29,215 nucleotides of DNA from a virus. This document shows, piece by piece, positions 5,416 through 27,511 of the stretch. The position numbers and the translations under genes were made by a program. The notes beneath the pieces were generated by a model, which saw only the letters and a list, made by a program, of their open reading frames with translations, searched no databases and was not told where the DNA came from. The stretch spans positions 1 to 29,215 of IMG/VR virus record IMGVR_UViG_3300043449_001694; one strand, given 5' to 3'. Each line of letters starts with the position of its first letter. The first letter of the stretch is position 1.

Positions 5416-5804
5416 CAGTAGTCGAGCTCACCAACCAGAGCGATGCTCACGCGGCTCAAGCCGGTGTACACCGATTGGACATCAGGGGGGCCGGCGTACT
5501 CCCACCGAATACTGGTCGGTGACTGAATGTGGTTGATCAGCGTGTTGGTCATCCCAGCGAAGATACCCGTAGGCAAGGTAAATCGCTCAAAGCCTCCACT
5601 CGTGCTGGTGTAATGGCTGAGTAGCGCTGCTGTGACCGAGTCCGAAACATTGCTGTACTCCAATCGCAGCTCGTAACCAGTGGCCCGATTGCCAAAGCTG
5701 CGTTTGACCGTGGCGCCCGACAGCGAGCGGTAAACCTTGGTGGGAAAAGTCCCGAGCTTGAAGGACCGACCAGAGGGTTTGATTTCGGGATACTGGTCTG
5801 CCAT
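5415..5804 (-). CDS. Minor tail protein (lambda M-like position)
   Basis: A 129-residue protein directly after the tape measure gene, where lambda-like phages encode gpM. It begins MADQYPEIKPSGRSFKLGTF. It carries the features of the M-type minor tail family: an early segment describing a repeated beta fold (SGATVKRSFGNRATGYELRLEYSNV in two pieces), then a region ending in W..AGPPDVQSVYTGLSRVS, which is similar in layout to the C-terminal strand of such proteins. In known phages this protein binds the tape measure tip and starts tube assembly. Stop codon overlaps the next ATG. Family assignment is by gene order and general pattern. Confidence 0.82.
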   Translation of the reverse strand: MADQYPEIKPSGRSFKLGTFPTKVYRSLSGATVKRSFGNRATGYELRLEYSNVSDSVTAALLSHYTSTSGGFERFTLPTGIFAGMTNTLINHIQSPTSIRWEYAGPPDVQSVYTGLSRVSIALVGELDY

Positions 5805-8800: not shown

Positions 8801-11080
8801 GGCTGTAGCGTTTTCACCGACCTCGGCATAGACCGTGCTTAAGCGCTTAATGGCGATCTCAGCTCTTGTCTGGTCTGAGATCTCCTGCTGGCGTCTCTGC
8901 CAACGACCTAAAAGATCAAATGCCAAAGTGAAGGCAAGCTGCCAAGCCAGCATCCCACCTAAGAACTTTGCGGTGCTTACTACCCAGTTACCCACAAAGC
9001 CTGATACTGCTCCAGCTGCCTTTTGAAAGCCGCTGGTAACCGTGTTGCCGATGTTGCGCATAGCACCAGCAACTTCCTGAGCTTTTACCTCGAGCTTTTC
9101 AAGTTGCGCTGTGCTCTGAAGCGCGAACTCAGCAACACGGACTTGCGTCGTCTTGACGTGCTTGTCGACGTTTAAGAAGGCCTTGCCGACACTGCTGATT
9201 GATACAGCTAGTTTCCCGAACTGCGGTGCTGTCGCCTGCAGTGCAACTCCTAGGTCAACTAGGAACACGCCTAGGGTCTGGACTGCAAGCCGAATCGCTC
9301 CGAGTAAGGCTTTGACTACAACGGCTGCTAGGGAGACAAATCCCTTACCCAGTGCTGCTAGGCCCGCGCTGGCACCGGCGACCGCTCCGGCAACCCCGCT
9401 AAAGGCTGTAGTGACGGCGCTGCCGACGGCCTTGATTGCGGTGCTAACCCAGCCAAAAACGACTTTAAGACTTTCAAAGATACCAGGCAGAATATACAGT
9501 GTTCTGATTAGAGGCAGTACGCCTGCGTCATTTAGGATCTTAAAGTTTGCGGCGACCTGACTTAAATACTGGGCGAATGGATTTGCAAGAATTGCCCCAT
9601 AGATCTCTAGTAGCCTTGTAAGAGCTGGGATGACTGTCGCATTTAAGATGTTCCCCAGTCCGGTCAGGGCTGTGATGTAGATCTTGAACTGTTCAAACCT
9701 AAATGAGGCAAAGCCCTTTAACAAGGATATGAGCCCACCAGAGATTTGAGCAATGCCTTTAACGAACTGGTTCGTCAGCAGGGCAATTTGAGGCCTCAGC
9801 TTGTCAATAGCCTCCTGAATCCGCAGAAACATTCGCACAGAGTCTTGCTCCATGCCTTTGAACGCATCGACTTGATCGCGCTGGCTCACACCCGCCAGGC
9901 TCGGTGCGGCAGCAGCTGCTCCAATGACACCGCGTCCAACAGCACTGAAGCTTTTCCCAAGAGCGTCGGCAATGCCGAACGTGCTCTTGAAGACCAGCTG
10001 TAGGCGCTGATAAAGAACAGTCAGTCCATCCAGTAAGGGCGCTAAGAAACTACGGCCGAATGCTCGGCTGATCTCCTCTCGGAATTCCTGGATGTTGCTG
10101 ATGATTCCACCGAAGCTCTTTGCGGCGATGGACTGACCGGCCGTGAATGCAGCCAGGCGACGCTGCAGGAAACCAATTAGGCCCTCAGCTGAGGTCTTCG
10201 CTTTTTGAACCTCTTCGTTCGTGAGACCCAATGAGCGAGCCAGCACTGAGTTCTGGTCAATGTTGCCCGTCAGGATGGAACGAATCTCCTGGGTGGCATA
10301 CATCGGGTCTGACAGACCCATTGTCCCCAATGCAGCGCTGAAACTGATCGCCAGATCTTCTGCGTCTTTTAGCGAGCCACCGACTGAAGCGATTTGGGAC
10401 GCAACCACCCCGAAGACTTGAACGATGGCGTCGGATGTTGTGCCGGCGATCTCGAGGGAGCGAGCTCTGATGCTTTCAATCGTTTGGTTGATCGGTCCCT
10501 CAAGGGCCACAATGGCTTGATAGGGATCTGTAATTCGTTTGCCATTAGCGGCTACATCCGCTGTGGAGACGAGAGTTGTCTTAGTACGGAGCAACGCTTC
10601 TTGCAGCCGTACTTCTCGCCCGATGGTTTCATCGAAAAAGCCGCCAAAGGCCTGCCTCAGTACCGAGACCGACTGGGTGACACCAAAGACTGTGTAGCCA
10701 AGGGATGCTGTGCTCTTGGCGACGCCGTCAATGGCGCCTGTAGCCCCCCGGAAGCTGGTCGTCAAGATCTGACCAGGAGAAGCCGCTTTGATCAGCTCAA
10801 AGGACTTTGCTACGTACTCGCCTGTCTTTCCTACCTTGCTCAGTACTGTTTCTACATCTTGAATCCGTCCTCCTACTACGGGTAGATTCCTTGCGATTGA
10901 ATACGTTGTATTGAGCGCTTTTCCTAGTGTTTCTACCCCGTCTATTGCATCTTGCAGGCTCGGGAGCTGCAGATTGACCTTTCGACTCCGTTCTACATCG
11001 TTGAGATGGCGGTCTAGACGCTTTAGCTTCTCGTCTGCTTCGCGAGTCTGGGCCTCTACCCTGATTGTGTAGTCGGCCAC
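5804..11080 (-). CDS. Tail tape measure protein
   Basis: The largest gene of the window (1758 aa, GTG start at 11080). It sits immediately after the G/GT chaperone pair, the universal position of the tape measure. Residues 1-60 are a charged helix. About 190-360 matches the conserved N-terminal tape-measure region, with lines such as LTGNIDQNSVLARSLGLTNEEV and a following sniQEFREEISRAFG-type segment. Hydrophobic, Ala/Gly-rich stretches lie near 450-640, a long charged coiled coil near 750-1000, and a Gly-rich C-terminus near 1590-1670 carries GERGPELFIPSAAG, a hallmark of many tape measures. The protein sets tail length and may be injected with DNA. At about 0.15 nm per residue it predicts a tail near 260 nm, which is long for a siphovirus. 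ATG of the next gene overlaps its end. Confidence 0.96.
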   Translation of the reverse strand: MADYTIRVEAQTREADEKLKRLDRHLNDVERSRKVNLQLPSLQDAIDGVETLGKALNTTYSIARNLPVVGGRIQDVETVLSKVGKTGEYVAKSFELIKAASPGQILTTSFRGATGAIDGVAKSTASLGYTVFGVTQSVSVLRQAFGGFFDETIGREVRLQEALLRTKTTLVSTADVAANGKRITDPYQAIVALEGPINQTIESIRARSLEIAGTTSDAIVQVFGVVASQIASVGGSLKDAEDLAISFSAALGTMGLSDPMYATQEIRSILTGNIDQNSVLARSLGLTNEEVQKAKTSAEGLIGFLQRRLAAFTAGQSIAAKSFGGIISNIQEFREEISRAFGRSFLAPLLDGLTVLYQRLQLVFKSTFGIADALGKSFSAVGRGVIGAAAAAPSLAGVSQRDQVDAFKGMEQDSVRMFLRIQEAIDKLRPQIALLTNQFVKGIAQISGGLISLLKGFASFRFEQFKIYITALTGLGNILNATVIPALTRLLEIYGAILANPFAQYLSQVAANFKILNDAGVLPLIRTLYILPGIFESLKVVFGWVSTAIKAVGSAVTTAFSGVAGAVAGASAGLAALGKGFVSLAAVVVKALLGAIRLAVQTLGVFLVDLGVALQATAPQFGKLAVSISSVGKAFLNVDKHVKTTQVRVAEFALQSTAQLEKLEVKAQEVAGAMRNIGNTVTSGFQKAAGAVSGFVGNWVVSTAKFLGGMLAWQLAFTLAFDLLGRWQRRQQEISDQTRAEIAIKRLSTVYAEVGENATAATKAAKAFEESIVSSRIDKLTKSLEEYSEQYRKLRDLEADLGKSSNGPLENAANNFKAFALSFSQSLDPEKIKANIAEIRREYDKLSKIDEKNRQENKAKEDVQLLAKERRDIETRLAEERKQLTREIVDKEFSLRQEYLRTEQSIYEARRQLDQNALDQKLKQEQQGLSGVRQQVAQILGDYEKSLFNAQTEAQKRQFDIARQRETIEKEVSDYKLKLEDQTYKLRIKLGEYNKKVADYEASERIRSAKAVLEYAMRTAALQAEGFIVTPEERDQFMNAAAQRGVSATKSLALLKTGAASSLGVAPGASPKDVIDKLVEQFGAALSSDNGAFEQALNARTKALYGQSTGGTYALRTAEAELGSRRFIKTAPTTPPKLKGFTEYAATVESTVGRLQTALDTVLKASIRQANESLNIANTLAANEVKNRLLDPGLYTDAPAPEMIRDNIDALRTTILDLSEAAKAGSTSIDPLTARLRLIEQSLMAAIDQVAKAKRASGTNVTDEMVNVSKEVARRYLRGQASLEDVNGTFSSDAFGSALKYTVAGAGAAADRERTNAPLNTKQSALTLVKELQQAMTTLPDTMAQETATMFAEIKQLYAQGDPVRQRLAVLDAELEQLKLRNKEALKDPEALAAFKLYSDAARANATKLGELASKLEQFQLRIALINEAARSLTEGTKGFVNSLLRGDNLSKAVGEMGRAIGEKFLGMAVDYAFAPIEKLLQEQFKNFLMPEDPTMALQRENNSALGLNTSALERVATALATSGQVLPGLPTTGGAITALPVESVTALGQLAPLSKNGTEFAESLNEINTNLAQAPLKAQEANKGFQNFLGGMAGVAAGAMSIAGGIQQLGKGGTSNTLAGIGSIFLGLGSAIGGFGGMGLFGRRAGGGAISSSRPYMVGERGPELFIPSAAGNIQSNQSLREAMGNTPTNNGGSPVLNMSFQTTNIGGVDYVSRDQLEEAMAVTRRQAIKEGARRGSSLALDRLQQSPGTRRRVGLR

Positions 11081-12158: not shown

Positions 12159-12698
12159 TTGGCTTTGGAGTGTTGGAAGCCCATCCCAGGCTGGGAAGAT
12201 CTGTACAAAGCGTCATCGGATGGACGTATTAAGTCTGAAGACCGTGTTAGTACTTATATCCAGGGAAATGCTCTTGTAACTCGGCGAAGGAAGGGTAAGG
12301 TGTTGACGCCGATCAAGATGAACTCTGGCTATTGGGGCGTAATACTCTGTAGGGATGGTGCGCGGTCATACATTCCTATTCACAGGCTTGTAGCTGCTGC
12401 TTTTTACGGACCCAGGCCTAAAGAGCTTGTAACCCGTCACATTGATGGAAATGTCGACAATAATACGGTTGAAAACCTCGCCTATGGCACTACGCAGGAG
12501 AACGTTGACGATAGGTCTAGGCACGGTCGCACCTCCCGCGGTGATCGGCATCCCCTGGCCAAGCTGTCCGATGTACAAATCAGAGAGATGAGGCGTATTC
12601 ACGCAGAGACCAACGCTTCCACGCGGGCTTTGGCTTCGAGGTTTGGTGTGTCGAATGTGCGTGTCTCTCAGATTTTGAGAGGTGGACATCGACCTTGA
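12159..12698 (+). CDS. HNH homing-type endonuclease with NUMOD4 and C-terminal helix-turn-helix
   Basis: A 179-residue plus-strand protein within the minus-strand tail region. Residues 5-55 match NUMOD4 (WKPIPGWEDLYKASSDGRIK). Residues about 75-115 match the HNH_3 type: HRLVAAAF, then RHIDGNVDNNTVENLAYGT. Residues about 133-175 form a helix-turn-helix (LSDVQIREMRRI, then ASRFGVSNVRVSQILRGG). This order is typical of free-standing phage homing endonucleases. They cut target DNA and spread their own gene. Start is a TTG at 12159, because the in-frame TGA at 12150-12152 prevents a longer form. Its stop directly abuts the stop of the convergent 84-aa gene. The gene lies between the tube gene and the chaperones, consistent with insertion at a module border. 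Confidence 0.93.
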   Translation: MALECWKPIPGWEDLYKASSDGRIKSEDRVSTYIQGNALVTRRRKGKVLTPIKMNSGYWGVILCRDGARSYIPIHRLVAAAFYGPRPKELVTRHIDGNVDNNTVENLAYGTTQENVDDRSRHGRTSRGDRHPLAKLSDVQIREMRRIHAETNASTRALASRFGVSNVRVSQILRGGHRP

Positions 12699-16051: not shown

Positions 16052-16963
16052 TCAGGCCTTTTCCAGCACCATGGCGCTCTTGGGGTAGTAGAGGGACAGG
16101 CCGCCGATGCGGGCGTGGGCTGCCACGGAGAACTCGAGGGCCTGACGCACGGGGGGCAGGAACTCGAGAGGCTGGGGCAGGTGCAGTTGCAGCTTGTCGG
16201 GGCTGCGGTCGTACACGAACACGCGGTCCTTGGACAGCGAACCACCCGACTTGGAGGCCTCGAGCTCGTTGATGGGCTCGATGGCGCTGATCATCGGGTT
16301 CGTCCGGAGGAAGAACTCCATGATCGTGGTGTCCGAAGTGGACGACCGGGGGGTGGTGCTGATGATGCGGTACACGTTGTAGGGCACCAGCATCGTGTTG
16401 GGCATCTCCTTCATGTTGGAGTTCTGCACCACACGGGTGGGAACTTCATTCAGGAGTTGGATCAGCTCGTCGGTGGTTGCGGTGTCGAACCACACGCTGG
16501 GGACCAGCTTGTCGACCTGATCGTTGTTGAACAGGCCCTTCATGCCCGAGGCGGCGTCGCCGAAGTAGGCGATTTCCTGCACCTTCTCCTCGTAGGCGCG
16601 ACGCACGGCGTTGGCACGGCGTTGCTCCAGGTTCATGCCGGGCACCATGACGGCGGCACGGGTTTCCTGGATGGTGTACGCGAAGGAGGCACCGAGGCTA
16701 CGCACAGGGTGCGTGACCTCTTTGCGCAGGACGTCGGCACGGGGCAGGTCGTTGGCTTTGTCGCCAATGACCTTCATCGAGCCTTGCTTGTCGAAGACGC
16801 GATAGGTGAAGGAGTCGGCGCCGGATCCGACCTCGGTGGAGATCGGGATCAGCTGGCTGTACTTGATGTCGGCGTACTCGACCTCGAAAGTGCGAGCCAG
16901 GATGGTCTCCAGCTCACGGGCGAGAAAGACGCCGACCTCGTCGTTACGAATTTCGGTAGTCAT
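16052..16963 (-). CDS. Major capsid protein (DUF2184 type)
   Basis: A 303-residue protein matching the DUF2184 family of HK97-fold capsid proteins. Typical segments are FLARELETILARTFEVEYAD, IPISTEVGSGADSFTYRVFD (the family has I.......GA...TY...D), and EKVQEIAYFGDAASGMKGLF, where the family carries a ...GD...G..GL.N pattern. The C-terminus EFSVAAHARIGGLSLYYPKS is also typical. It forms the icosahedral head shell. Gene order protease/scaffold, cement, capsid is the usual order for this head module. A GGAG lies 10 bases before the ATG. Size agrees with the family (about 300). Confidence 0.95.
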   Translation of the reverse strand: MTTEIRNDEVGVFLARELETILARTFEVEYADIKYSQLIPISTEVGSGADSFTYRVFDKQGSMKVIGDKANDLPRADVLRKEVTHPVRSLGASFAYTIQETRAAVMVPGMNLEQRRANAVRRAYEEKVQEIAYFGDAASGMKGLFNNDQVDKLVPSVWFDTATTDELIQLLNEVPTRVVQNSNMKEMPNTMLVPYNVYRIISTTPRSSTSDTTIMEFFLRTNPMISAIEPINELEASKSGGSLSKDRVFVYDRSPDKLQLHLPQPLEFLPPVRQALEFSVAAHARIGGLSLYYPKSAMVLEKA

Positions 16964-17607: not shown

Positions 17608-18918
17608 TTACTTGGTGGCGGTGAGGGGACGCTTCCAGGCTTCGACCTGCCGAGCTCGGTAAGAAGACACGGGGTCGTCGTTGGAGCGACCGGCTCCCTT
17701 CAGCGCGTCGCGCAGGGCGGCGGTGCTGTCGGAACGGGCGTCGGCGGCGTCCTCTTTGGTTTCACCGGTTTCACCGGCTTCACCGTCGTCGGAGCCTTCG
17801 GCTTCTTCACCGTCGCCCTCTTCACCTTCGGCGTCAGCGCGGGCGGCAAGGATGCCGTCCACAACACCACAGATGTAGGAGGGGTCGGCGTCTTCGCGAG
17901 GAGCGGCGCCGGTCAGGTTTTCGAAGGCCTGGTTGTACAGAGTGGCGTCGTCGATGCCGTCGAACTTGAAGTCCTCGGTAAAGGCGGGGGCCAGCTTCTG
18001 GAGGGTGGAGAGACGAGCGGCGACCAGTTGGTCGAGCTCGGCTGTGTCGATACGAGCAGAGCCGGATTCGAGCTCGGTGATGCGCTCTTCGAGAGCATCA
18101 GCACGGCCTTCGGCGGCTTCCTTCTCGTAGGCGATGGAGTCGAAGTCTGCGTTGAGGGAGTCGAGCTTGGAAGAAAGCTCGTCGCGCTCGGTGGTCACAG
18201 CTTTGAGTTGGCGCTCCATGTCCCGTGCGAAGGACTGGACCGCCGTTGCTGCTTCCGCGGGCAGATCGATCTCCAGGCCGTCAAGTTTGACGGTGGCCAT
18301 AACGGGAGATGCAGGTTGACTGGGCTGGAGCGCCGACCCATAGGTGTGGGTCAGTTCCTGGTCGTAGGCCACAGCGTCAGCTGCGTCCATACGGTCAAGG
18401 AGCAGTCGTACCTCCGGGCCAGCCCGGCCACGGGGCACGATGGCGATGTGATTCACCCGGATGTTGCGCTGGATGCCGGAGTACTCCTCGCCCTCGGGGG
18501 TGAGCCCGGGGGTGGGGTCGAAATCGACCTTGTAGCCGGCAGACACCTCAGTGGCGTCCTTGCGCTTGATCTTCTCGATGGCGTCTGCGTCGGTGACGAC
18601 GAGGGCGACTTCAACGAAACCGTCGTTGTAACGGACCTGGCTACCGGAATAGCCGACCTGATACGTCTTGGTGTTGGAAGAGTCGAGAAGAACGGGTGGA
18701 TGCCCCCATGTCGCGGGTTTCATCCCGAACGTGGAAAGCGAATCGGGAGCACTGACCTCCTCAGGGGGCCTGTATTCCCGGACTTGGGAGCCATCAGCAC
18801 GCCGATAGAGCTGAGTGCCCGTACGTGCAGCACGACACCACACACGGAGGTAACCCTCCTCTGTGGTTTCGCTACCCGTGATGGGGGCGAAGTCGTACCT
18901 GGATACTGATGTTTCCAT
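17608..18918 (-). CDS. DUF2213 prohead protease fused to scaffold
   Basis: About 436 residues from ATG at 18918 (GTG at 18924 is an alternative). Residues 1-175 match DUF2213: GMKPATWGHPPVLLD with His73, DATEVSAGYKVDF with Ser126, and RVNHIAIVPRGRAG with His157, the places expected for a His/Ser protease of prohead type. Residues about 215-300 form a charged coiled coil (RDMERQLKAVTTERDELSSK). Residues about 340-400 are an acidic Glu/Asp/Gly low-complexity stretch, followed by a basic C-terminus (YRARQVEAWKRPLTATK), a common layout of a scaffold whose C-terminus binds the shell. The protease would cut the scaffold away during head maturation. Catalytic roles are inferred from the family. Confidence 0.92.
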   Translation of the reverse strand: METSVSRYDFAPITGSETTEEGYLRVWCRAARTGTQLYRRADGSQVREYRPPEEVSAPDSLSTFGMKPATWGHPPVLLDSSNTKTYQVGYSGSQVRYNDGFVEVALVVTDADAIEKIKRKDATEVSAGYKVDFDPTPGLTPEGEEYSGIQRNIRVNHIAIVPRGRAGPEVRLLLDRMDAADAVAYDQELTHTYGSALQPSQPASPVMATVKLDGLEIDLPAEAATAVQSFARDMERQLKAVTTERDELSSKLDSLNADFDSIAYEKEAAEGRADALEERITELESGSARIDTAELDQLVAARLSTLQKLAPAFTEDFKFDGIDDATLYNQAFENLTGAAPREDADPSYICGVVDGILAARADAEGEEGDGEEAEGSDDGEAGETGETKEDAADARSDSTAALRDALKGAGRSNDDPVSSYRARQVEAWKRPLTATK

Positions 18919-18930
18919 GCGCACAGATTA

Positions 18931-18980: not shown

Positions 18981-19196
18981 GTGGCAATCCACCGGCAATT
19001 GACTATGTGCCGCAGGATGCGCGCCTTACGGGAGTACACAGGTCATACCCAGGCAGAAGTGGCGGAACGCCTGGGGATCAGTCAGGCTGCGTACTCGAGG
19101 CTGGAAAAGGGTGAAGTAGAGATATCGCTGTCGAAGCTAATAGTATTGAGCGAGATCTACGCAGTACCGTTGCACGAGATGCTGCAGGGCATCTAG
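18981..19196 (+). CDS. Xre-family helix-turn-helix regulator (71 aa)
   Basis: A single-domain DNA-binding protein on the plus strand. MRALREYTGHTQAEVAERLG, then ISQAAYSRLEKGEVEISLSK is a clear HTH_3/Cro-C1 motif: helix 2 around TQAEVAERLG, recognition helix around SQAAYSRLEKG. It ends EIYAVPLHEMLQGI, as many short Xre proteins do. The GTG at 18981 gives 71 residues; ATG at 19005 gives 63 and still covers the domain. It lies between the protease/scaffold gene and the Cys-motif genes, on the opposite strand, with a palindrome just upstream. Its target is not evident: it may control itself, neighbouring late genes, or be a cargo gene. It ends overlapping the convergent 59-aa gene by four bases. 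Confidence 0.93.
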   Translation: MAIHRQLTMCRRMRALREYTGHTQAEVAERLGISQAAYSRLEKGEVEISLSKLIVLSEIYAVPLHEMLQGI

Positions 19197-19405: not shown

Positions 19406-20476
19406 TTAGCGGCGGCTGGTTTTACCCGAGCACTTCCACTTAGCACGGGAGAGACAAAGCGGGGTGTTGCGTTGGGCGCCAGAGCAGTCATAACCCTCGG
19501 ATTTCATGTCGCCGAAGGACCGGGCGCAGTAGCGGTCACCTTTGGGTGTTCCGGGGGCGATCCGGTAACCCTTGGCGCCGTAGCGGACCTTGTTGGGGCG
19601 GCCGGTCTCAGGGTTGGTGACGGTCTTGGTGTACTTCTTGCCGTCTTCGGTGTCCTTCTGAGTTCGAGGTTTGGCCAGTCCAGAGGAAGCAGGGACACAG
19701 TTGGGCACTTCGCGCTTGCCTTGGCGCTTCATGCCGGCTTGGACGTAGCCCTCCCAGCAAGCGTCACGACGGATGGGCGGTTGAAGCTGGACTGGGGCGT
19801 AAGTCTGGATGTAGGCGTCACGCCGCCCGAAACCCTCAACACGGCGGCGACTTGGCTGGCCGGTCCGCGGGTCAAGCGGTAAGAGCACACGCTCGGGTGT
19901 CAGGTTGCTCTCAGGGAGTTGGGCTTGAATCCCACCCGGTAAGCGCTTCTGGTCGGGTCTGCGATAGCCAGGCTCGAAACGGCGTCGAGCAGCTTCAGTG
20001 CGGAGACGAAGCTCTCGCGCTGTGGTTTTAACGGCCATGCCGGTGGCTTCACCCGTGGCGGCCATGGTGTTGCCGATCTGGCCGAGGCGTCTGATCTCCT
20101 CTCGCGCAGTCTGGGCGATGCGGCCTTCAGCGTTGCGAATGGCGGCAGCCGTGTTCTCCCGCATGCGTGCGGTCTTGGACTGGGGAACCCGAGCCGGTGC
20201 GAGAAGGGCTCGTGGGGTGAAGCCGGGCAGACGGGACGGACCAGAGGGGCGTTCAGGACTAGAGGTTATGGAAGTGGTAGCCCGGCTCAGGCGTGCCTTG
20301 CCTCCAGACTTGCGCGTCAGAGCAAGAGCCCCAAGGGCAAGCGCACCAGCAGTCAGACCAGCAGCAGCAGCGACTTTGGTTGCAGTGCTAGGGCCTTTGT
20401 GGCACTTCTCGCCCTCGGAGATGGCACCTTTGCCACATTTCAGGTCGAGTCTGAGCGTACTCGGTGTGAGGGTCAT
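19406..20476 (-). CDS. Cys-motif head-region protein with membrane-like segment (356 aa)
   Basis: Near the N-terminus, residues 10-25 read LDLKCGKGAISEGEKC, a motif shared with the next upstream protein and with the large 22441-25131 protein. It is followed at about 33-54 by an Ala/Gly/Leu-rich hydrophobic stretch (VAAAAGLTAGALALGALAL) that could span a membrane. The middle is basic and helical. The C-terminal third is Cys-rich: CWEGYVQAGMKRQGK and VPNCVP, then KVRYGAKGYRIAPGTPKGDR, YCARSFG, YDCSGAQRNTPLCLSRAKWK, ending KCSGKTSRR. The last part resembles a short C-terminal domain known from cyanophage virion proteins, as far as I can recall. The function is unknown. Position suggests a head or internal virion protein, possibly ejected. 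Confidence 0.85.
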   Translation of the reverse strand: MTLTPSTLRLDLKCGKGAISEGEKCHKGPSTATKVAAAAGLTAGALALGALALTRKSGGKARLSRATTSITSSPERPSGPSRLPGFTPRALLAPARVPQSKTARMRENTAAAIRNAEGRIAQTAREEIRRLGQIGNTMAATGEATGMAVKTTARELRLRTEAARRRFEPGYRRPDQKRLPGGIQAQLPESNLTPERVLLPLDPRTGQPSRRRVEGFGRRDAYIQTYAPVQLQPPIRRDACWEGYVQAGMKRQGKREVPNCVPASSGLAKPRTQKDTEDGKKYTKTVTNPETGRPNKVRYGAKGYRIAPGTPKGDRYCARSFGDMKSEGYDCSGAQRNTPLCLSRAKWKCSGKTSRR

Positions 20477-20479
20477 AGG

Positions 20480-21298
20480 TCAGATGGCTAGTTGGTTGTA
20501 ATCAACTGAGAAGCCTTTGGCATAGGTGCCCCCGTCGCGGTACCCAACACTGCGACGCCAAGCCTTCTCTTTTTTCTCATTCTGAGCATGCTGCTGAAGA
20601 TCAGTGGCACCAAAAGCCCCTACGCGTCTAGCGGCACCGAAACCTGCTTGAGGTCCAAACAGAAAAGTAGATGCTGTGACTGAAGCAACCTTGCTACCCA
20701 TTGACCCTTTTTCGTTCTTTCCTCCAGTGATCCCAGAAGCGAGTGTCTTGCCGAGGTTGTAACCAGAGGTCCACTTCACGGTTTCCAGGGCCACCTTGCC
20801 TGCCGTCTTCAATCCCTGGCCAATCTGGACACCGGCGCTGGGCCCTTCAGCCTTGGTCGCCGCACCCTTACTGCACTTCTCTCCCTGAGAGATCGAGCCT
20901 TTGCCGCACTTCAAATCAAGCCGCTCTGCAGTGTCGAGACGGGCTCGGATGTAGGAACGGGAGCGGCCTTGGATGCCGAGGTCGCAAGCGGCGAGGTACT
21001 CCTGAGGGGTCAGGGCGTCGTTGCGGTCCATCTTCTTGCCATAGCTGCCGCAGTTGCCATCGCAGGACGCTTTGCCTTTGCGAGCACCGCAGCTGCAACC
21101 CTCTCCATCCATGGGAGCTTTGGTGTTCTTGGCACCTTTGGCGCTGCGCTTGCGATTGGTCTTGCCCGCGGGCATGTCGTCGGGCTCGGCGCCTTCGCGC
21201 ATCTCCTCTTGCGCGGTTTCAGCCATCTCGTGTTTCTTGCCCTCGCCCGGCTCCATTTCCATGGACTTGGACTTCATGGACATGCTGGGCTTGGCCAT
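20480..21298 (-). CDS. Cys-motif head-region protein (272 aa)
   Basis: Begins with a Met/Ser/Lys-rich leader (MAKPSMSMKSKSMEMEPGEG) and an acidic stretch. A compact Cys cluster at residues 68-83 (CSCGARKGKASCDGNC) looks able to bind a metal. Residues about 96-128 are helical (ALTPQEYLAACDLGIQGRSR), leading into RLDLKCGKGSISQGEKC at about 126-142, the motif shared with two neighbours. The C-terminal half has alternating Gly-rich hydrophobic stretches (STFLFGPQAGFGAARRVGAF). The function is unknown. It is a member of a local family with the 356-aa and 896-aa proteins and probably part of the virion. ATG start; the 3-base gap to the next gene suggests coupled translation. Confidence 0.85.
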   Translation of the reverse strand: MAKPSMSMKSKSMEMEPGEGKKHEMAETAQEEMREGAEPDDMPAGKTNRKRSAKGAKNTKAPMDGEGCSCGARKGKASCDGNCGSYGKKMDRNDALTPQEYLAACDLGIQGRSRSYIRARLDTAERLDLKCGKGSISQGEKCSKGAATKAEGPSAGVQIGQGLKTAGKVALETVKWTSGYNLGKTLASGITGGKNEKGSMGSKVASVTASTFLFGPQAGFGAARRVGAFGATDLQQHAQNEKKEKAWRRSVGYRDGGTYAKGFSVDYNQLAI

Positions 21299-21362
21299 AG
21301 CAAGGGTGGCCGGGATGGCGTAGTCGGATAGGCCAGATTACCGCTGGTGGAGCTTGCTTACG

Positions 21363-21566
21363 GTGACAGGTAGTGGAGTACCTCCCGTGGACATTGGAAA
21401 GTTTCTAGGAAATGAAGTTGAGCATGCTGCTGGTCCGATTACACAGAGAGTTGATACGGTAATTAAGCGTCTTGATGAGATTCAGACTCAGCTTGAGGAG
21501 CTGAATCGTCGTTTGGATGCCTTGGGTCCGCTGTTTCGCTTTCTGGGACGCTTTACCCGGCGCTGA
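21363..21566 (+). CDS. Short coiled-coil protein on the opposite strand
   Basis: About 67 residues from GTG at 21363, preceded by GGTGGAG with 10 bases spacing; a TTG at 21354 gives 70. The segment ITQRVDTVIKRLDEIQTQLE, then ELNRRLDALGPLFRFLG has regular heptad spacing of I/V/L and is an amphipathic coiled coil with a basic end (RFTRR). It occupies the only gap between two minus-strand genes and overlaps the end of the MuF-type gene by 14 bases. The composition is protein-like rather than shadow-like. The function is unknown; a small oligomeric accessory protein is likely. No homologue is recognised. Confidence 0.68.
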   Translation: MTGSGVPPVDIGKFLGNEVEHAAGPITQRVDTVIKRLDEIQTQLEELNRRLDALGPLFRFLGRFTRR

Positions 21567-22437
21567 GGGGGGTGGGGGCGAGCTGTTCGAAGACGGCAGC
21601 ACGGTTGAGGCTGGCGAGCTCGGTGGTGCCGGTCCGCTTGAGAGCAGCTGCCACCTCTTGTTTATGCAGTCCTTGCATAGCTGCGTAGTCAGGGTCCATC
21701 TGGGCGATCTCGGGGTCCCAAGGGGCGACGTAACAGCGGCAGCGGGGGTGAAGGGGCACCTTGATTTCGCTGCGTCTGTATAGCTCCCCAGCCCTCGGGG
21801 CGCAGATGGGGCAGGCTCGGTCATCGGCGGTCGCGTAGTACATGACGACGTCGATGCCCTGGGCTGCGTAGTACGTGTTGGACGCACTGTTGTAAGCACG
21901 TAAGGACTCCGTGCGCACGATCACGTCGGCGCGGGACTTCACTACGCCCAGGCGTAGCCGCATGTCCTGCACCATGGCGTCTGTTGGGCGGCCTTCGGCG
22001 ATCCCTTGGGCGACCGTGGCGGCAGCGGTCTCGGCAAACTTCTCACCGTGACGGCGGAGATAGCCCTTGGCTTGGTTAGCGGCAGCCACCGTGGCCTCCA
22101 GTGGAATGGAGACATCGATGCGTGGAGTGTCGGGGCGCATCTGGGTGGTCAGTTGCTGGCTGACGTCCAGGCCGAGCCCGGAGGCAGCACGCACGAGATT
22201 CCGGAATAACCGGTCGTAGGCGTCCACCTTGTCGGGACGAAAGGCCGGGACCAGTTGGCGGAACTCTTGCAGCAAGGCGAGGTTGCGCTGGGACGGATCG
22301 GAGTATCCGGCCTTCATGTGGATCCGGGTTCGACGCACCAGGCGGTTGAAGGCCTGGTCGAGGACGCGGTTCAGGAGACGCAGTGTGCCGTCCTCGGTGG
22401 TGCGGAGGGTGCGGTTGTACTGCTCAAGGATGTCCAC
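21553..22437 (-). CDS. MuF-type head morphogenesis protein (SPP1 gp7 family)
   Basis: A 294-residue protein (GTG start at 22437). The C-terminal region carries the MuF signature ATADDRACPICAPRAGELYR, followed by VPLHPRCRCYVAPW: CPIC, then HP.CRC, a probable zinc-binding cluster. It is preceded by the conserved segment RADVIVRTESLRAYNSASNT (family R......ET...Y). The N-terminal part is helical. MuF-type proteins bind portal and scaffold during procapsid assembly, and a few copies remain inside the head. Here the gene lies one gene away from the portal, with a large Cys-motif gene inserted between them. The full family core is present. Confidence 0.95.
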   Translation of the reverse strand: MDILEQYNRTLRTTEDGTLRLLNRVLDQAFNRLVRRTRIHMKAGYSDPSQRNLALLQEFRQLVPAFRPDKVDAYDRLFRNLVRAASGLGLDVSQQLTTQMRPDTPRIDVSIPLEATVAAANQAKGYLRRHGEKFAETAAATVAQGIAEGRPTDAMVQDMRLRLGVVKSRADVIVRTESLRAYNSASNTYYAAQGIDVVMYYATADDRACPICAPRAGELYRRSEIKVPLHPRCRCYVAPWDPEIAQMDPDYAAMQGLHKQEVAAALKRTGTTELASLNRAAVFEQLAPTPLSAG

Positions 22438-22440
22438 CAG

Positions 22441-25131
22441 TTAGACCGGCGCGGCTTTGTTCGGTAGAAGTCCGTGATCTCGACGCGGACGAGCTTGGTA
22501 CCGTGCCGCCGCTGCCTGGGTATCACCCCCTCGAATCAGCTCCACGATGTAGCCCTCCTGCTCCTCTGGGATACGCGTGAGTTTCCCTTGGTTTTTAAGG
22601 GCATACATCTCGTTGCCGCGCAGTCCGTTGAGCTCACGGAACTTGAAGCGCTTGTAGATGCTGGCGCGTTTAGCTCCCAAGCCATCGTCCTTGAAGGGCT
22701 TGTTGAACAGCACTGCGTTCTCGGGGAGCTCATCCAACTGACGGTTGAACATGCTCTTGACTTGCTTAGAGACCGCCAGCGACTGAGCTTTGGTAACCCC
22801 CTCCTTCTGGGAGAAGCTCAGGTCCGTTTGGAAGGCCACGCCATACTTGTCGAAAGCACCGGCCTTACCCTTGCGCTCAGCGACGAAGGTGACGAGCGTG
22901 TCGTCAACCGAGCCCATGCTCAGGACGTGCCCTGTTGTCGGGTTGTGCCAGGTGCTGAAGTTGTTCTCGGTGTCGACGTGCTTGAGCCTTAAGCCCTGGG
23001 CGTCTGCAGCCACATAGGCCAGGCCAAGCTTGGCTTTACCCAAGAGCTTGCTGGCTGGCTGCTGCCATTGCTTGGGAAGTTTGGCAATGTTACGGCGCAC
23101 CTGGGTGTCGGACAAGCCTTTGATGCCTTGCTCGATGTATCGGGCGGAGTTCTTGTACAGCCCCATCGACTGCCTGTTCTTGTAGGCGTACCGTCCGCCA
23201 AGGGTCAGGCCTGCCACCGTGCCAGCAATGGCGGCTGCTTTGCCTACACGACTGAGCGTGGAACCGGCTGTTCCGGATGTGGTAGGACGCTCAGCTGTCG
23301 ATGACGTCGCCGAAACAGCTGCTGTCTGTTTTGAGCACTTACGGTTATCTGGGATACCCGACTTGCCGCAGCGCTTGTCGAGACGAGCATCGACTGAGTC
23401 GCGGCGGCGCATGGCCTCGTAGGCGTTCTCGGCGGCGGCGCGTGTGGCATAGCGCGGTGTGCCATCGGGGTTCTTCTGCCGCAACAGCGCGGCGACGGCT
23501 TGACCGCGGGAACGACGGCGGGCTGGACGCTCTACGCCGGTCGCTGCGCGCGGTGCCGTGCTCGATGTGGGAACTGCCCGGCGAACGCGGGTGATCGAAC
23601 GCCATCCAGACGCTGCCCCCGCTTCGTTAACCACCCGCAGCGCCTCGCTCGGGTCGCCGACCGTCGTACCCCGCAGCTCACTAGCTGCAGTCACGAGCTC
23701 GGTGTCCGTCATGGAGAAGCTGGGCTTGGTCTGACCCATCACGACCTTGGAGTGATAGGCCTTGCGTAGTAGGAGGGCTGTACCAGATCCAGGGATAGGC
23801 CGCTGCCAGGACAGACGCTGCGCCAGGTATTGGGCGTGCCCCAGAGATGCGTCGATATACGAGCTGGCCTTGATCCCGGTACGAATACCGGGGGCGATTG
23901 TTCCGGACTCAGCGATGTCCCGAAACGCGCTGTCAAAACCACCCAGCGTGTCCTTGTAGAGCGTTTCAGCCTGGGCCAGTGGCGACTTTTTGTCGTCCAT
24001 CAGCTTGATGAAGTAGGCCTCGGTGGCCGCGTCTAAGTCGGCATCACCGCTTTTCCAGCTCGTAGCGGTCTTGTTGAGGTACTCGGGGAGGTCGCTCTGC
24101 GACTTGGGATCGAGGCCAGCCTGCTGCATCCCTGTAGTGATGCGGCTGCGTTGGGCCTCGATCACTTCGGTGAGACCACGCTGCGTGTAAATCCGGTCAG
24201 CGTTGAGATCGGTGCCCCAGCCCTGGGGACGACGGAGCCCGAAGCTACGAGTCAACAGATTGTTGGTCGAACCGACCGAGAACAGGCTGCCTTGCCCCAG
24301 ATTCAAGGTGGCGGGTCGCTGGGTTCCCCAGAACTCGCGCAGGGACCGGGACTCCCACTCAGGGAAAGCAGTTTTGGATGGGACACCGTTCGACATGTCG
24401 ACGCTGTTCATCCGATCTCGAAGGGCGTCGCGGCCTGTTCCAGCGCGGGGGTTCTGCCGACGACCGATGGCTTGGAGGTTTTGACTAGCCAAGCCCTGCC
24501 GCATCTGGGCTTGAGCCGTCGCTGAGTGCTGTAGACCTTGAATGCCTAGGGCTTCACGCGCTCGGATGCGGTCACCCACAAGGGGCGTATTCCTTGCGAG
24601 GCCATCAATCGCCGTTTTGACAGAGTCGTCGATCTTGTCACCAATAGCGCGACGATACTGCGCATTGACAGACAGCCCCCTGTGACTAAGGGCAGCGAGC
24701 ATGACGATAGCAACAGGAGCGCCAACGTAAGTAGCAAACCGGTTGATATTGTTTTTAAGCTCTTCTTTGGCTTTAAGATCACCGGGGTGCACCTTTGCGG
24801 CACCACGAGCGATTGCGCGACGACCACCCTCGAGCTCGGAGAAGCTGAGCTTGGCTACGCCTTTGCCGAGGCGCTTGATACCTCGCTCGATGTTGGCAAA
24901 TCCTGCAATCGGGTCCGAGCCTTTACCTACCGAGCGGAGGTGAGGATCGTTGCCTTCGCCTTTTAGCCGACAGTCCCACTCAGGGGGGATACAGCGGTTG
25001 CCGCACTTGGTGTTAGGAGGTGTGCAGCGTACTGAACCGCGAGTTTTGCCTCGGCGTGCGTCTAAGCGAGCACGGGCTTCGAGGTATGCAACCGTCCGGA
25101 AACCGTCGGGGTTGATGTTCGGGGTTGTCAT
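22441..25131 (-). CDS. Large Cys-motif head-region protein (896 aa), possible internal virion protein
   Basis: ATG at 25131 overlaps the portal stop (TGATG) and is preceded by GGGAGA, so it is chosen over the ATG 15 bases upstream. The N-terminus (residues about 22-54) reads RLDARRGKTRGSVRC, then CTPPNTKCGNRCIPPEWDC, followed by a Gly/Lys-rich region and a hydrophobic stretch near 133-146 (VGAPVAIVMLAALSHRG). The long middle is helical. Near 583-601 a second motif ARLDKRCGKSGIPDNRKC precedes another Ala/Gly-rich hydrophobic stretch (AAAIAGTVAGLTLGGRYAY). The last 200 residues look like a folded alpha/beta domain, with ENAVLFNKPFKDDGLGAKRA and IYKRFKFREL; the latter resembles the end of GNAT folds, but this is weak. 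Position between portal and MuF suggests an internal, possibly ejected, head protein. Confidence 0.85.
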   Translation of the reverse strand: MTTPNINPDGFRTVAYLEARARLDARRGKTRGSVRCTPPNTKCGNRCIPPEWDCRLKGEGNDPHLRSVGKGSDPIAGFANIERGIKRLGKGVAKLSFSELEGGRRAIARGAAKVHPGDLKAKEELKNNINRFATYVGAPVAIVMLAALSHRGLSVNAQYRRAIGDKIDDSVKTAIDGLARNTPLVGDRIRAREALGIQGLQHSATAQAQMRQGLASQNLQAIGRRQNPRAGTGRDALRDRMNSVDMSNGVPSKTAFPEWESRSLREFWGTQRPATLNLGQGSLFSVGSTNNLLTRSFGLRRPQGWGTDLNADRIYTQRGLTEVIEAQRSRITTGMQQAGLDPKSQSDLPEYLNKTATSWKSGDADLDAATEAYFIKLMDDKKSPLAQAETLYKDTLGGFDSAFRDIAESGTIAPGIRTGIKASSYIDASLGHAQYLAQRLSWQRPIPGSGTALLLRKAYHSKVVMGQTKPSFSMTDTELVTAASELRGTTVGDPSEALRVVNEAGAASGWRSITRVRRAVPTSSTAPRAATGVERPARRRSRGQAVAALLRQKNPDGTPRYATRAAAENAYEAMRRRDSVDARLDKRCGKSGIPDNRKCSKQTAAVSATSSTAERPTTSGTAGSTLSRVGKAAAIAGTVAGLTLGGRYAYKNRQSMGLYKNSARYIEQGIKGLSDTQVRRNIAKLPKQWQQPASKLLGKAKLGLAYVAADAQGLRLKHVDTENNFSTWHNPTTGHVLSMGSVDDTLVTFVAERKGKAGAFDKYGVAFQTDLSFSQKEGVTKAQSLAVSKQVKSMFNRQLDELPENAVLFNKPFKDDGLGAKRASIYKRFKFRELNGLRGNEMYALKNQGKLTRIPEEQEGYIVELIRGGDTQAAAARYQARPRRDHGLLPNKAAPV

Positions 25132-26960
25132 CAGTACGTCTCCCAAGCGGCTCGGAGTGCTTCGACTTCGCCCTCGGGTACAGGGGAGAGCCCTGCCACA
25201 GTCTGCCGAGGGAATAAAGCGTTGATGCCGCTCTTTGCTGCGCGCAAGGAGGCGAAGCCTGTTGCATAGGGGCCGTCAATCAGGGCGCCGTCGACGACAA
25301 AGCGGGCTCGGTAGACCTTGTAAGCCTTGGTGCGATTGGGACCAAAGACCATCAGGGGTGCGCCCTCGGTGGCATCGGTGCGTTGACCGTCGGGGCCTAC
25401 CAGATGCCCGGCTTTGACACCGCTCAGTTCGTGCGAAACAGCGATGCGTAGGCCGTGGGCCTCGTAGTGGTCAAACAGGGAGGCGTCACCACGGCCAGGT
25501 GGGAGGATTGCGGTCTGTGCTGGGTCGTCTGCTTCCTCTGCCGGCGGTAAGCCGGGTTGCTCTGGTGACGCAGCTGACAGTTGAGCCTCGTAGCCCGCCA
25601 TCTGCGATTGGAATGAGGCGTCGGTCTGGGCAACCAATTGCTCAGTGACCGCCTCGTTGAGCGTGGTGTCGATGCTGTACTCGGTGCCACCGAAGCGGGC
25701 TTCGCGTACTTCGAGGGGGTTCAGGACTCCAAGATTGATGTACTGCGCATCGACTTGAGCCATCTGCAGGCGCAGACCCGCTTTTTCCTCGTCGGTCTGG
25801 GTGAAGACACTCGGGAAGCGAACACTCCAGGATTCCGGAACTCGTCCTCGGGTGGGGCCTTCGCGGCTGGCGAGGATGTAGGTGAAGACCTCGGTCAGTG
25901 GGGTGCGGCAGTAAACCTCCTGCCACTGCTCGACCAGGGAGGCCCAGACGCGTTCCTCGAAGCGGCCTTCCTTACCCAGGCCACCGGGAGAGTCACCCAT
26001 CAGGATCGAGGCGGGCCAACCCGTGGCTGCTTGGAGATCCTTGATAAAGGGCTCGGTGGCACTGGCCATGTTGGACAGCGCACGGTTGAGGAACTGAAGG
26101 TCTTCCTCCTGGTCGACGACCATGCCGCCGTAGACGGAGCGGCTGAGGTTGTTGGCCTCGAGGCGCTTGCGCAGATCCGTCTCGTTTCCGGAAGCAATCC
26201 GCTGGAACAGGCCGGGGATCTTGTGGACAAACAGATCCGAGTCCGTGGTCATGGTTTCGAGACCCGACATCGTGGACTCGTAGCGCTTGTAGGCCTCCCA
26301 GATCAGCTGAAGGACCGACTGACCCCAGCCGGTGTTGCGGACACGGACGTTCCAGGGCAGATACAGACCATCGAAGCGGGCGACCCGGGTGTTGTGGATG
26401 CGGACGTTGGTGTACGAGCCCGTCTGGTTGGGGGTGATCCGCTGGCTGGTAGTGATCCGGTAATGCGAGGGCTTCGAGTAGTCCGTGATCGAGAAGTCCT
26501 CGGGGATCAGCTCGTGCCGTGACAGAGGAACGAAGCCGCGAACTGCGCGGATGCGGTTGAGGTCGACCGGTTCCTCCTCGGGGAGACCGTCGTCGATCAA
26601 CAGGACTAGGCCCGCTCCACCGTAGAGGCGCTGCAGTTTGACGACCTCGGAGAGGGCGTAGTGGAACTGGGTGGCCTGGAGAAAAGTCTCGACACTGCTG
26701 ATGGTGTTGTTGGCATCAGGCTCGGTGTCGCTGCCCAGGACGATGGTGGTGCGGTGGCGCAGGATCTCATCGGCGATGGCGTCGACGTAGCGACGAGGTA
26801 CGCCGTGGCTGTAAAGGGCCTCGAGCTCGGATTCTGAGAGGAAGGCTTTTGCTGCTACAGATGTTGCTGTTGTCTTGTCTCGAGATGACAGGCCCATTCC
26901 TGTCAACACGTTGACTAAAGCACCATCATTCCGGAAAGTATCGGTAGTGTTTTGCGTCAC
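25131..26960 (-). CDS. Portal protein (DUF1073 type)
   Basis: About 609 residues from GTG at 26960 (MTQNTTDTFRNDGALVNVLT); a longer form from TTG at 27002 is possible. The DUF1073 portal features are clear: an early ...LVN.LTGMG..RDK segment, RRYVDAIADEILRHRTTIVL, FHYALSEVVKLQRLYGGAGL, VHKIPGLFQRIASGNETDLR (family segment K.pgl...), and ATGWPASILMGDSPGGLGKE with EERVWASLVEQWQ, the conserved G.SP.G.N/K region. Portal dodecamers form the DNA entry vertex and anchor the motor and neck. A tail of roughly 110 residues (FDHYEAHGLRIAVSHELSGV to the end) lies beyond the usual core and contains NRTKAYKVYRARFVVDGALI; its function is unknown. No terminase is found next to it. Confidence 0.95.
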   Translation of the reverse strand: MTQNTTDTFRNDGALVNVLTGMGLSSRDKTTATSVAAKAFLSESELEALYSHGVPRRYVDAIADEILRHRTTIVLGSDTEPDANNTISSVETFLQATQFHYALSEVVKLQRLYGGAGLVLLIDDGLPEEEPVDLNRIRAVRGFVPLSRHELIPEDFSITDYSKPSHYRITTSQRITPNQTGSYTNVRIHNTRVARFDGLYLPWNVRVRNTGWGQSVLQLIWEAYKRYESTMSGLETMTTDSDLFVHKIPGLFQRIASGNETDLRKRLEANNLSRSVYGGMVVDQEEDLQFLNRALSNMASATEPFIKDLQAATGWPASILMGDSPGGLGKEGRFEERVWASLVEQWQEVYCRTPLTEVFTYILASREGPTRGRVPESWSVRFPSVFTQTDEEKAGLRLQMAQVDAQYINLGVLNPLEVREARFGGTEYSIDTTLNEAVTEQLVAQTDASFQSQMAGYEAQLSAASPEQPGLPPAEEADDPAQTAILPPGRGDASLFDHYEAHGLRIAVSHELSGVKAGHLVGPDGQRTDATEGAPLMVFGPNRTKAYKVYRARFVVDGALIDGPYATGFASLRAAKSGINALFPRQTVAGLSPVPEGEVEALRAAWETY

Positions 26961-27047
26961 GACAGCGCAAGACGCGGCGGGATATGCAAAATGTATCGCC
27001 AAATTGCAAACTTGCGCACAGGGTGCGAATGCGAGTTAGCGGTATAC

Positions 27048-27121: not shown

Positions 27122-27202
27122 TCGAGGCCGCTGTTTTCTCTGTTGCAGACTGCGACGGGGACTTTGCTCTGGTCCGTAGGCTGGGAAAGCTGCCACGCCG
27201 GC

Positions 27203-27511
27203 ATGTTGGACCATCACATCGATGGATCCCTCCTCTGCTCAAAACGGTGCGCCAAGCTGCGATTTCGGCAGGGGATCCTCGACTCCTGGGGGTCTTCCTG
27301 CGCGTATTGCGGTAAGCCAGCCGGAACCTTGGATCATGTCCGTCCTCGGTGCAAAGGGGGGCACACCGTTGCCCACAACCTCATTGCCGCTTGCGCTGAG
27401 TGCAATCGAGGTAAAGGGTCAGAGGCGGACTGGAGAACTTGGTTTCGGAGTCAGCCCTCGTGGTCCCCGGACCGAGAAGCCAGTATTTGGGACTGGCTCA
27501 ACCCGGCATAG
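27203..27511 (+). CDS. HNH endonuclease
   Basis: About 102 residues from ATG at 27203; a TTG at 27143 would give 122. CSKRCAKLRFRQGILDSWGS precedes CAYCGKPAGTLDHVRPRCKG, then NLIAACAECNRGKGSE, a complete HNH domain: Cys pairs (CAYC and CAEC) for structural zinc, DH at the first catalytic position, N and N in the later strand-helix. The end WFRSQPSWSPDREASIWDWL is a feature I associate with Synechococcus-type HNH proteins. HNH nucleases next to packaging genes often work with the terminase in DNA cutting, but this gene is on the strand opposite to the head genes and a free-standing role cannot be excluded. Confidence 0.92.
   Translation: MLDHHIDGSLLCSKRCAKLRFRQGILDSWGSSCAYCGKPAGTLDHVRPRCKGGHTVAHNLIAACAECNRGKGSEADWRTWFRSQPSWSPDREASIWDWLNPA

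Follow-up and report, generated by a model that had tools for sequence, protein, structure and literature searches.

The internal proteins of phage T4 (IPI-III and Alt) share a leader that directs their packaging, and they are injected with the DNA (PMC3012670, PMC12373910). Polyvalent proteins, which are large, multidomain and encoded near virion genes, carry kinase, GNAT, ADP-ribosyltransferase and zincin domains and are predicted to enter the host together with the DNA (Iyer et al. 2017, PMC5512222); a likely though not universal theme among them is that a zincin metallopeptidase within the protein processes it (PMC5512222). MuF polymorphic toxins couple variable effector domains to a head-vertex gene beside the portal gene, and the MuF domain delivers them (Jamet et al. 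2017, PMC5576092). Here we describe a short cysteine header in the IMG/VR virus record IMGVR_UViG_3300043449_001694, analysed over its whole length of 29,215 bases (hereafter the window) and possibly a fragment. The minus strand of the window is a siphovirus-like structural block, in which the header recurs in three proteins of 356, 272 and 896 amino acids (aa) encoded around a MuF gene (Table 1). A preliminary description of this DNA had proposed a shared tag on otherwise unrelated head-region proteins that might form an undescribed family. The tag is borne out by several hundred copies in related IMG/VR contigs (at most six per contig), and its function is probably delivery-related; the three proteins form no homologue family and have only the header in common.

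A cysteine header in two forms

The header consists of RxD and a cysteine clip that reads either CGx[SG]xI[PSA]xxxxC (2-Cys form) or C-x6-CGxxCIP-x5-C (4-Cys form). Both forms lie in a common register, as in KCGKGAISEGEKC and GKPCGESHIPKSHKC (2-Cys) and CNPPNVRCGGRCIPPNWDC (4-Cys). The four strings quoted in the preliminary description are all present, namely RLDLKCGKGAISEGEKC (20393-20452, minus strand), RLDLKCGKGSISQGEKC (20864-20923), RLDKRCGKSGIPDNRKC (23326-23385) and RLDARRGK with the N-terminal Cys cluster of the 896-aa protein. In the 'RLD' of that description R and D are fixed and the middle residue varies, and the N-terminal cluster belongs to the motif as its 4-Cys version (C-G-x-x-x-I-P-x4-C register), a unity of the two forms that had been missed. 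A DNA pattern for the motif matches three times in the window, only at the three expected places (0.00 expected; 100 shuffles).

Related loci (about 200) were gathered with the 896-aa and 272-aa proteins as queries and a degenerate DNA pattern. The strict form of the motif comprises 75 distinct 20-residue cores in which R, D, C, G, I, K and C are nearly fixed and the second position is free; the wider form CGx[SGRA]x[IV]xxxxxC was found 502 times in 391 distinct open reading frames (ORFs). Across 78 non-redundant motif ORFs, only K, C, G, I and C are near-invariant in the motif, and in an alignment of 29 relatives of the 896-aa protein it is the Cys headers where near-invariant columns concentrate. 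This limitation of near-invariance to the header indicates that the header is independent of its cargo. The first and third cysteines (C1 and C3) occur together in 57 headers and are both missing in 299, never singly, although these counts are not independent, as most 4-Cys headers are the N-terminus of the 896-aa family. Such all-or-none occurrence fits C1-C3 and C2-C4 pairs, and a C2-C4 disulfide probably holds the clip shut, joined by C1-C3 in the 4-Cys form. Of 302 2-Cys headers, 290 have RxD no more than 20 residues upstream of the clip, compared with 12.6% in the control; the spacing is 5, 8, 12-13 or more residues, and in 4-Cys headers of the 896-aa family RxD is usually somewhat farther upstream. 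In none of the three window proteins did a Pfam model match the header at E <= 1. The pattern CGxRCIPxxWxC resembles low-density lipoprotein (LDL)-receptor class A repeats, a likeness that comes without a family match.

A hydrophobic stretch had been described behind three of the four occurrences. In the 356-aa protein it comes straight after the header (peak Kyte-Doolittle 1.88). In the 896-aa protein it is moderate behind the internal header (1.33) and comes only about 80 residues after the N-terminal one; the 272-aa protein, with a peak of 1.01 after its header, has none. The C-terminus also recurs, with a [YWF]AxGF tail in 129 of 391 motif ORFs compared with 7 of 1900 other ORFs. A complete unit would begin with a short leader that has RxD at its end, followed by the Cys clip and a variable effector domain; a hydrophobic helix rich in Ala and Gly often stands between clip and domain, and the [YWF]AxGF tail often closes the unit. 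Units occur as single small genes (the 356- and 272-aa proteins) or strung in one polypeptide (the 896-aa protein).

Cargo domains and their exchange at the header

By family match and fold comparison, the cargo domains behind the header are unrelated to each other: LRAT-like, kinase, J-domain, ADP-ribosyltransferase, zincin, hydrolase and probable GNAT. Pfam matches among the 78 non-redundant motif ORFs include LRAT (11), DnaJ (8), protein kinase (6, with related kinase models), ADP-ribosyltransferase exoenzyme (2, best 3e-10) and zincin-like domains (2), and PHROGs matches include an Alt-like RNA polymerase ADP-ribosyltransferase. The HExxH pattern is present in 5 of the 78, with weak matches to the ATLF/M3 families. 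Some polypeptides carry two such domains, for example a zincin-like HExxH domain (weak, E 0.03) with LRAT (1.1e-9) at locus L153, GNAT-like with kinase (RIO1 1.8e-9) at L107, and LRAT (weak) with DnaJ (1.2e-7) at L095. Because the whole 896-aa model gave no significant Foldseek match, its C-terminal cargo domain was folded separately (pLDDT 85). Nearly all top VIA-align rows for this domain were GNATs (Z 5.9-7.4, below 8), and its conserved G-x-G-x-K-R-x-x-I-Y-x-R-x-G-F resembles GNAT motifs A/B. Neither Foldseek (E <= 0.001) nor Pfam returned a match, and a profile search against PDB sequences was empty. A GNAT acetyltransferase fold is thus probable, and this is the upper limit set by the Foldseek result. 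In several relatives the next header starts directly behind the GNAT-like domain (LIRGDAADTRVDLKCGKGSIS, LIRGDRADAATGKPCGASHIP; domain alignment).

Header genes are confined to one part of the genome. In loci anchored by a head gene, each of the 561 motif ORFs shares the strand of the head genes, and all 133 with both borders known lie between the portal gene and the DUF2213 protease, cement or capsid genes, in loci that were fetched around motif and head genes and thus under-sample far genome regions. The usual order is portal, 896-type, MuF, 272-type, zero to three small header genes, 356-type, protease, cement and capsid.

Comparison of close relatives places the edges of exchanged DNA at the header. 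Two phages about 90% identical to the window have swapped or extra cargo, with edges within about 15 nt of the motif. In one of them, L005 (90% identical over 6.2 kb), similarity is lost 13 nt past the header in the 272-aa gene and returns 2 nt short of the 356-aa gene; the insert encodes a different C-terminal part and an extra 248-aa header gene, whose counterpart in L004 carries a J-domain. L004 has another break relative to the window, <=2 nt from the end of the header in the 356-aa gene. Across the full set of locus pairs, a motif edge is within 30 nt of 36% of right-hand breakpoints (8% at random) and within 60 nt of 49% (13% at random), and left-hand breakpoints show little enrichment; the breakpoints are not independent, and motif conservation itself lets alignments extend up to the motif. 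The modular effector cargo, these swapping edges and the C-terminal tail motif had all escaped the preliminary description, which had seen the tag itself.

Proposed packaging and ejection, and other readings

The location and modularity of the header, the identity of its cargo by family match, the relation between its 2-Cys and 4-Cys forms and the breakpoints beside it are evident from the sequences. On this basis we judge it rather probable that the motif is a transplantable header of cargo units that would be packaged in the head and ejected as effectors. The constant tag, varying cargo and confinement to the portal-protease interval point to delivery rather than to the activity of the cargo. 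Motif ORFs are strongly basic, with a median charge of +9.6 per 100 aa counted from the motif onward, and the DUF2213 scaffold-protease is very acidic (-8.1), as expected for cargo held in the scaffold core and later by DNA. During prohead assembly, the acidic DUF2213 scaffold core would take up the basic header proteins at the portal vertex; the scaffold would then be removed, possibly with RxD cleavage, and the cargo would stay with the DNA and be ejected together with it. Once inside the new host, the GNAT-like, kinase, LRAT-like, J-domain, ADP-ribosyltransferase, zincin and hydrolase domains would act as effectors on host targets or the membrane.

Several points weigh against packaging and ejection. 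In Synechococcus phage S-CBS4, the nearest isolate by portal and protease (42-43% identity), the corresponding slot holds glycosyltransferases and a methyltransferase and no annotated cargo of the header kind, which shows that this head type can do without the header. The 272-aa protein has neither a hydrophobic stretch nor an effector domain recognised by Pfam, the internal header region of the 896-aa model is of low confidence and gives no structural support for the clip, and the packaging of 2-Cys header proteins is a prediction from their genes. A bolder version, in which the header would suffice by itself, wherever transplanted, to load and inject an exchangeable effector arsenal, and its disulfide clip, shut in the virion, would open in the reducing host cytoplasm as a release switch, we consider doubtful.

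RxD itself may be a processing site. It occurs in nearly all headers at a variable distance from the clip, RxD-A/S stands just after the protease domain of the window DUF2213 protein and likewise in most DUF2213 homologues, and many units end in RRDS-type tails. That the whole header is a polyprotein processing site, where DUF2213 or another protease cuts RxD to separate the units and the Cys clip is a protective fold only, is nevertheless unlikely, as single-unit proteins carry the header at their very N-terminus, with little to release, and a bare protease site has no need of a conserved clip. The major capsid protein was considered as an RxD-processed protein and rejected, and by inspection no processed N-terminal region was noticed in it.

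The hydrophobic helix may aid membrane crossing or anchoring. A transmembrane-like stretch follows 84% of GKPC-type headers (control 14%, at one cut-off), and LRAT-like and lipase-like cargo are lipid-acting enzymes, which would suit a module of header and helix that, after ejection, places cargo in the cytoplasmic or thylakoid membrane of the host or forms a DNA channel. However, at that cut-off the stretch follows only 41% of KCGK/RCGK-type headers and 18% of the 4-Cys ones, and kinase and J-domain cargo have no evident need of a membrane, which makes this quite unlikely as the general role. Slightly less credible still are late intracellular proteins, serving host takeover or exclusion, unpackaged and merely located in the head operon. 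Head operons can hold variable accessory genes, as the S-CBS4 glycosyltransferases illustrate, and packaging is itself a prediction from sequence, but strict confinement to the portal-protease interval, one header on unrelated and strongly positively charged proteins, and T4 Alt-like ADP-ribosyltransferases among the cargo all speak for a place in the head. A DNA-level recombination site that shuffles cargo genes, with the protein sequence as a by-product, would account for breakpoints clustering just past the motif and is very improbable, since motif copies from a single genome agree at 75.5% of their amino acids and 70.2% of their nucleotides, with different codons at 46% of the identical residues, which indicates selection on the protein.

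Gene surroundings, cultured relatives and known systems

Table 1 Features of the window
Feature	Position	Strand	Remarks
Portal protein	25131..27002	-	PF06381, 1.4e-54; upstream border of cassette
896-aa multi-module protein	22441..25131	-	Directly after portal gene
N-terminal leader and 4-Cys header of 896-aa protein	24967..25104	-	GFRTVAYLEARARLDARRGKTRGSVRCTPPNTKCGNRCIPPEWDCR
Internal 2-Cys header of 896-aa protein	23326..23385	-	RLDKRCGKSGIPDNRKCSKQ; between conserved helical region and cargo domain
C-terminal cargo domain of 896-aa protein	22576..22998	-	Residues 712-852; probable GNAT fold
MuF minor head protein	21553..22437	-	PF04233, 2.3e-13; separate gene inside cassette
272-aa motif protein	20480..21298	-	N-terminal half conserved with header, second half variable, tail conserved
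Internal 2-Cys header of 272-aa protein	20864..20923	-	RLDLKCGKGSISQGEKCSKG
Segment replaced in L005	20478..20851	-	By unrelated DNA (about 1.1 kb including extra header gene); left edge 13 nt after header
C-terminal tail of 272-aa protein	20483..20542	-	YRDGGTYAKGFSVDYNQLAI; consensus R-x-D-S-[VI]-[YW]-A-x-G-F
356-aa motif protein	19406..20476	-	pI 10.8; two more Cys modules in C-terminal part
2-Cys header, N-terminus of 356-aa protein	20393..20452	-	RLDLKCGKGAISEGEKCHKG
Ala/Gly-rich hydrophobic (transmembrane-like) stretch behind 356-aa header	20315..20377	-	Peak Kyte-Doolittle 1.88
Second recurrent Cys module of 356-aa protein	19691..19768 (approximate)	-	CWEGYVQAGMKRQGKREVPNCVP
C-terminal 4-Cys module of 356-aa protein	19409..19540	-	YCARSFGDMKS..CSG..RNTPLCLSRAKWKCSGKTSRR
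DUF2213 head maturation protease/scaffold	17608..18924	-	Very acidic; downstream border of cassette
Major capsid protein	16052..16963	-	PF09950, 1.2e-56
Tape-measure-like long ORF	5804-11080	-	Minus-strand structural block

A cement-like protein is encoded between the DUF2213 protease/scaffold and the major capsid protein, and the MuF domain, which has its own gene, found no match in the 356-, 272- or 896-aa proteins. Directly upstream of the DUF2213 gene, on the opposite strand, is an HTH_3 regulator of 71 aa (7.2e-14; 18981-19196, plus strand). Of 93 loci that carry a DUF2213 gene, 76 have a homologue of this regulator at the same place, again on the opposite strand and with a median gap of 27 nt, and regulators are annotated at the corresponding place in phages CL131 (gp037) and S-CBS4 (gp021). 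Two plus-strand HNH endonuclease genes within or beside the structural block (12159-12698, NUMOD4/HNH_3, and 27143-27511, HNH_5) are possibly homing endonucleases. The N-terminal half of the 272-aa family also contains a conserved Cys cluster, GEGCSCGARKGKASCDGNCGSYGKKMDRNDALTPQEYLAACDLG. The C-terminal module of the 356-aa protein, YCARS..CSG..NTPLCLSRAKWKCSG, is also present in Synechococcus phage S-TIM5, Roseobacter phage CRP-212 and many Vibrio phages, and in Vibrio phage 1.054.O an ORF with it lies immediately upstream of the portal gene. The module CWEGYVQAGMKRQGKREVPNCVP recurs in proteins of cyanophages and other marine phages whose function is unknown, and adjoins the header in contigs of a Thermosynechococcus metagenome-assembled genome (MAG).

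Neither the window DNA nor the 896-aa protein matched GenBank phages, and a consensus 2-Cys header query had no credible match among 50,697 phage records; with 4-Cys and GKPC-type queries, CL131 was the sole credible match in phage records. The Aphanizomenon phage CL131 has 4-Cys headers in gp044, gp047 and gp048, the last with five headers and alpha/beta hydrolase domains in the same architecture. The Planktothrix phage PaV-LD has them in ORF061 and ORF065, and the Nodularia phage 2AV2 has a variant in 2AV2_17 and 2AV2_23. PaV-LD ORF062 (L206:40907-41488), annotated 'minor head protein' and located behind a 4-Cys-header protein, is ADP-ribosyltransferase-like by eye and without a Pfam match. 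Mic1 ORF3 and ORF4 are virion proteins directly after the portal (PMC7156551); their sequences are without such a header. Outside phages, 14 genome contigs match the motif DNA pattern, and only in the one Thermosynechococcus MAG does the motif lie in long ORFs (three loci, four matches, one contig also carrying a DUF2213 gene); the strict 4-Cys pattern is absent from all 386 cyanobacterial genomes searched. An ordinary bacterial domain was rejected on these results, which leave the motif phage-restricted. The host of the window is likely a cyanobacterium, because S-CBS4 is nearest, headers occur in cultured cyanophages and the motif is present in a Thermosynechococcus MAG; the cyanophage assignment of the preliminary description is supported.

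Injected phage effectors are usually found singly, because they have nothing recognisable in common, and the header offers a key for finding them. Kinase, LRAT-like, J-domain, ADP-ribosyltransferase, zincin and hydrolase cargo have already been listed with it in uncultured phages that are probably cyanobacterial. The question of what cyanophages inject becomes directly testable in cultured CL131, for which a proteome of 23 virion proteins has been measured (PMC6293099).

In CL131 and PaV-LD, the 4-Cys headers read C-x6-CGxxC-x6-C with a preceding RxD, as here, and in both phages and 2AV2 they are on large structural-block proteins, which in PaV-LD and 2AV2 lie between portal and protease, as in the window. 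The cargo differs (alpha/beta hydrolase in CL131, DUF3626 in 2AV2), and the CL131 header genes lie between the capsid/neck and tape-measure genes. Polyvalent proteins likewise combine several distinct effector domains in one polypeptide (as at L153, L107 and L095) in a late virion-gene context (133/133), but here a repeated Cys header marks every unit and is also found on small single-unit genes. The main text of PMC5512222 has no match for 'cysteine', 'LRAT' or 'DnaJ', and a repeated Cys header bounding units was found neither there nor in PMC5576092 nor in the literature searched, which excluded subscription papers and preprints. The concept of injected multidomain, polyvalent proteins is therefore known, and the shared Cys header appears to be the new part. 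Variable effectors beside the portal are also a trait of MuF polymorphic toxins, whereas here the Cys header is what the proteins share and MuF has a gene of its own. T4 internal proteins resemble these units as diverse, unrelated proteins with only a short shared leader, and Alt-like ADP-ribosyltransferases occur here too. Unlike the T4 leader, the header has a Cys clip, can be internal and repeated, often precedes a hydrophobic helix and accompanies a DUF2213-type head. Compared by arrangement, the best reading is that the header would work like the T4 capsid-targeting sequence, from which it differs wholly in form, as a candidate loading signal for a phage head other than that of T4.

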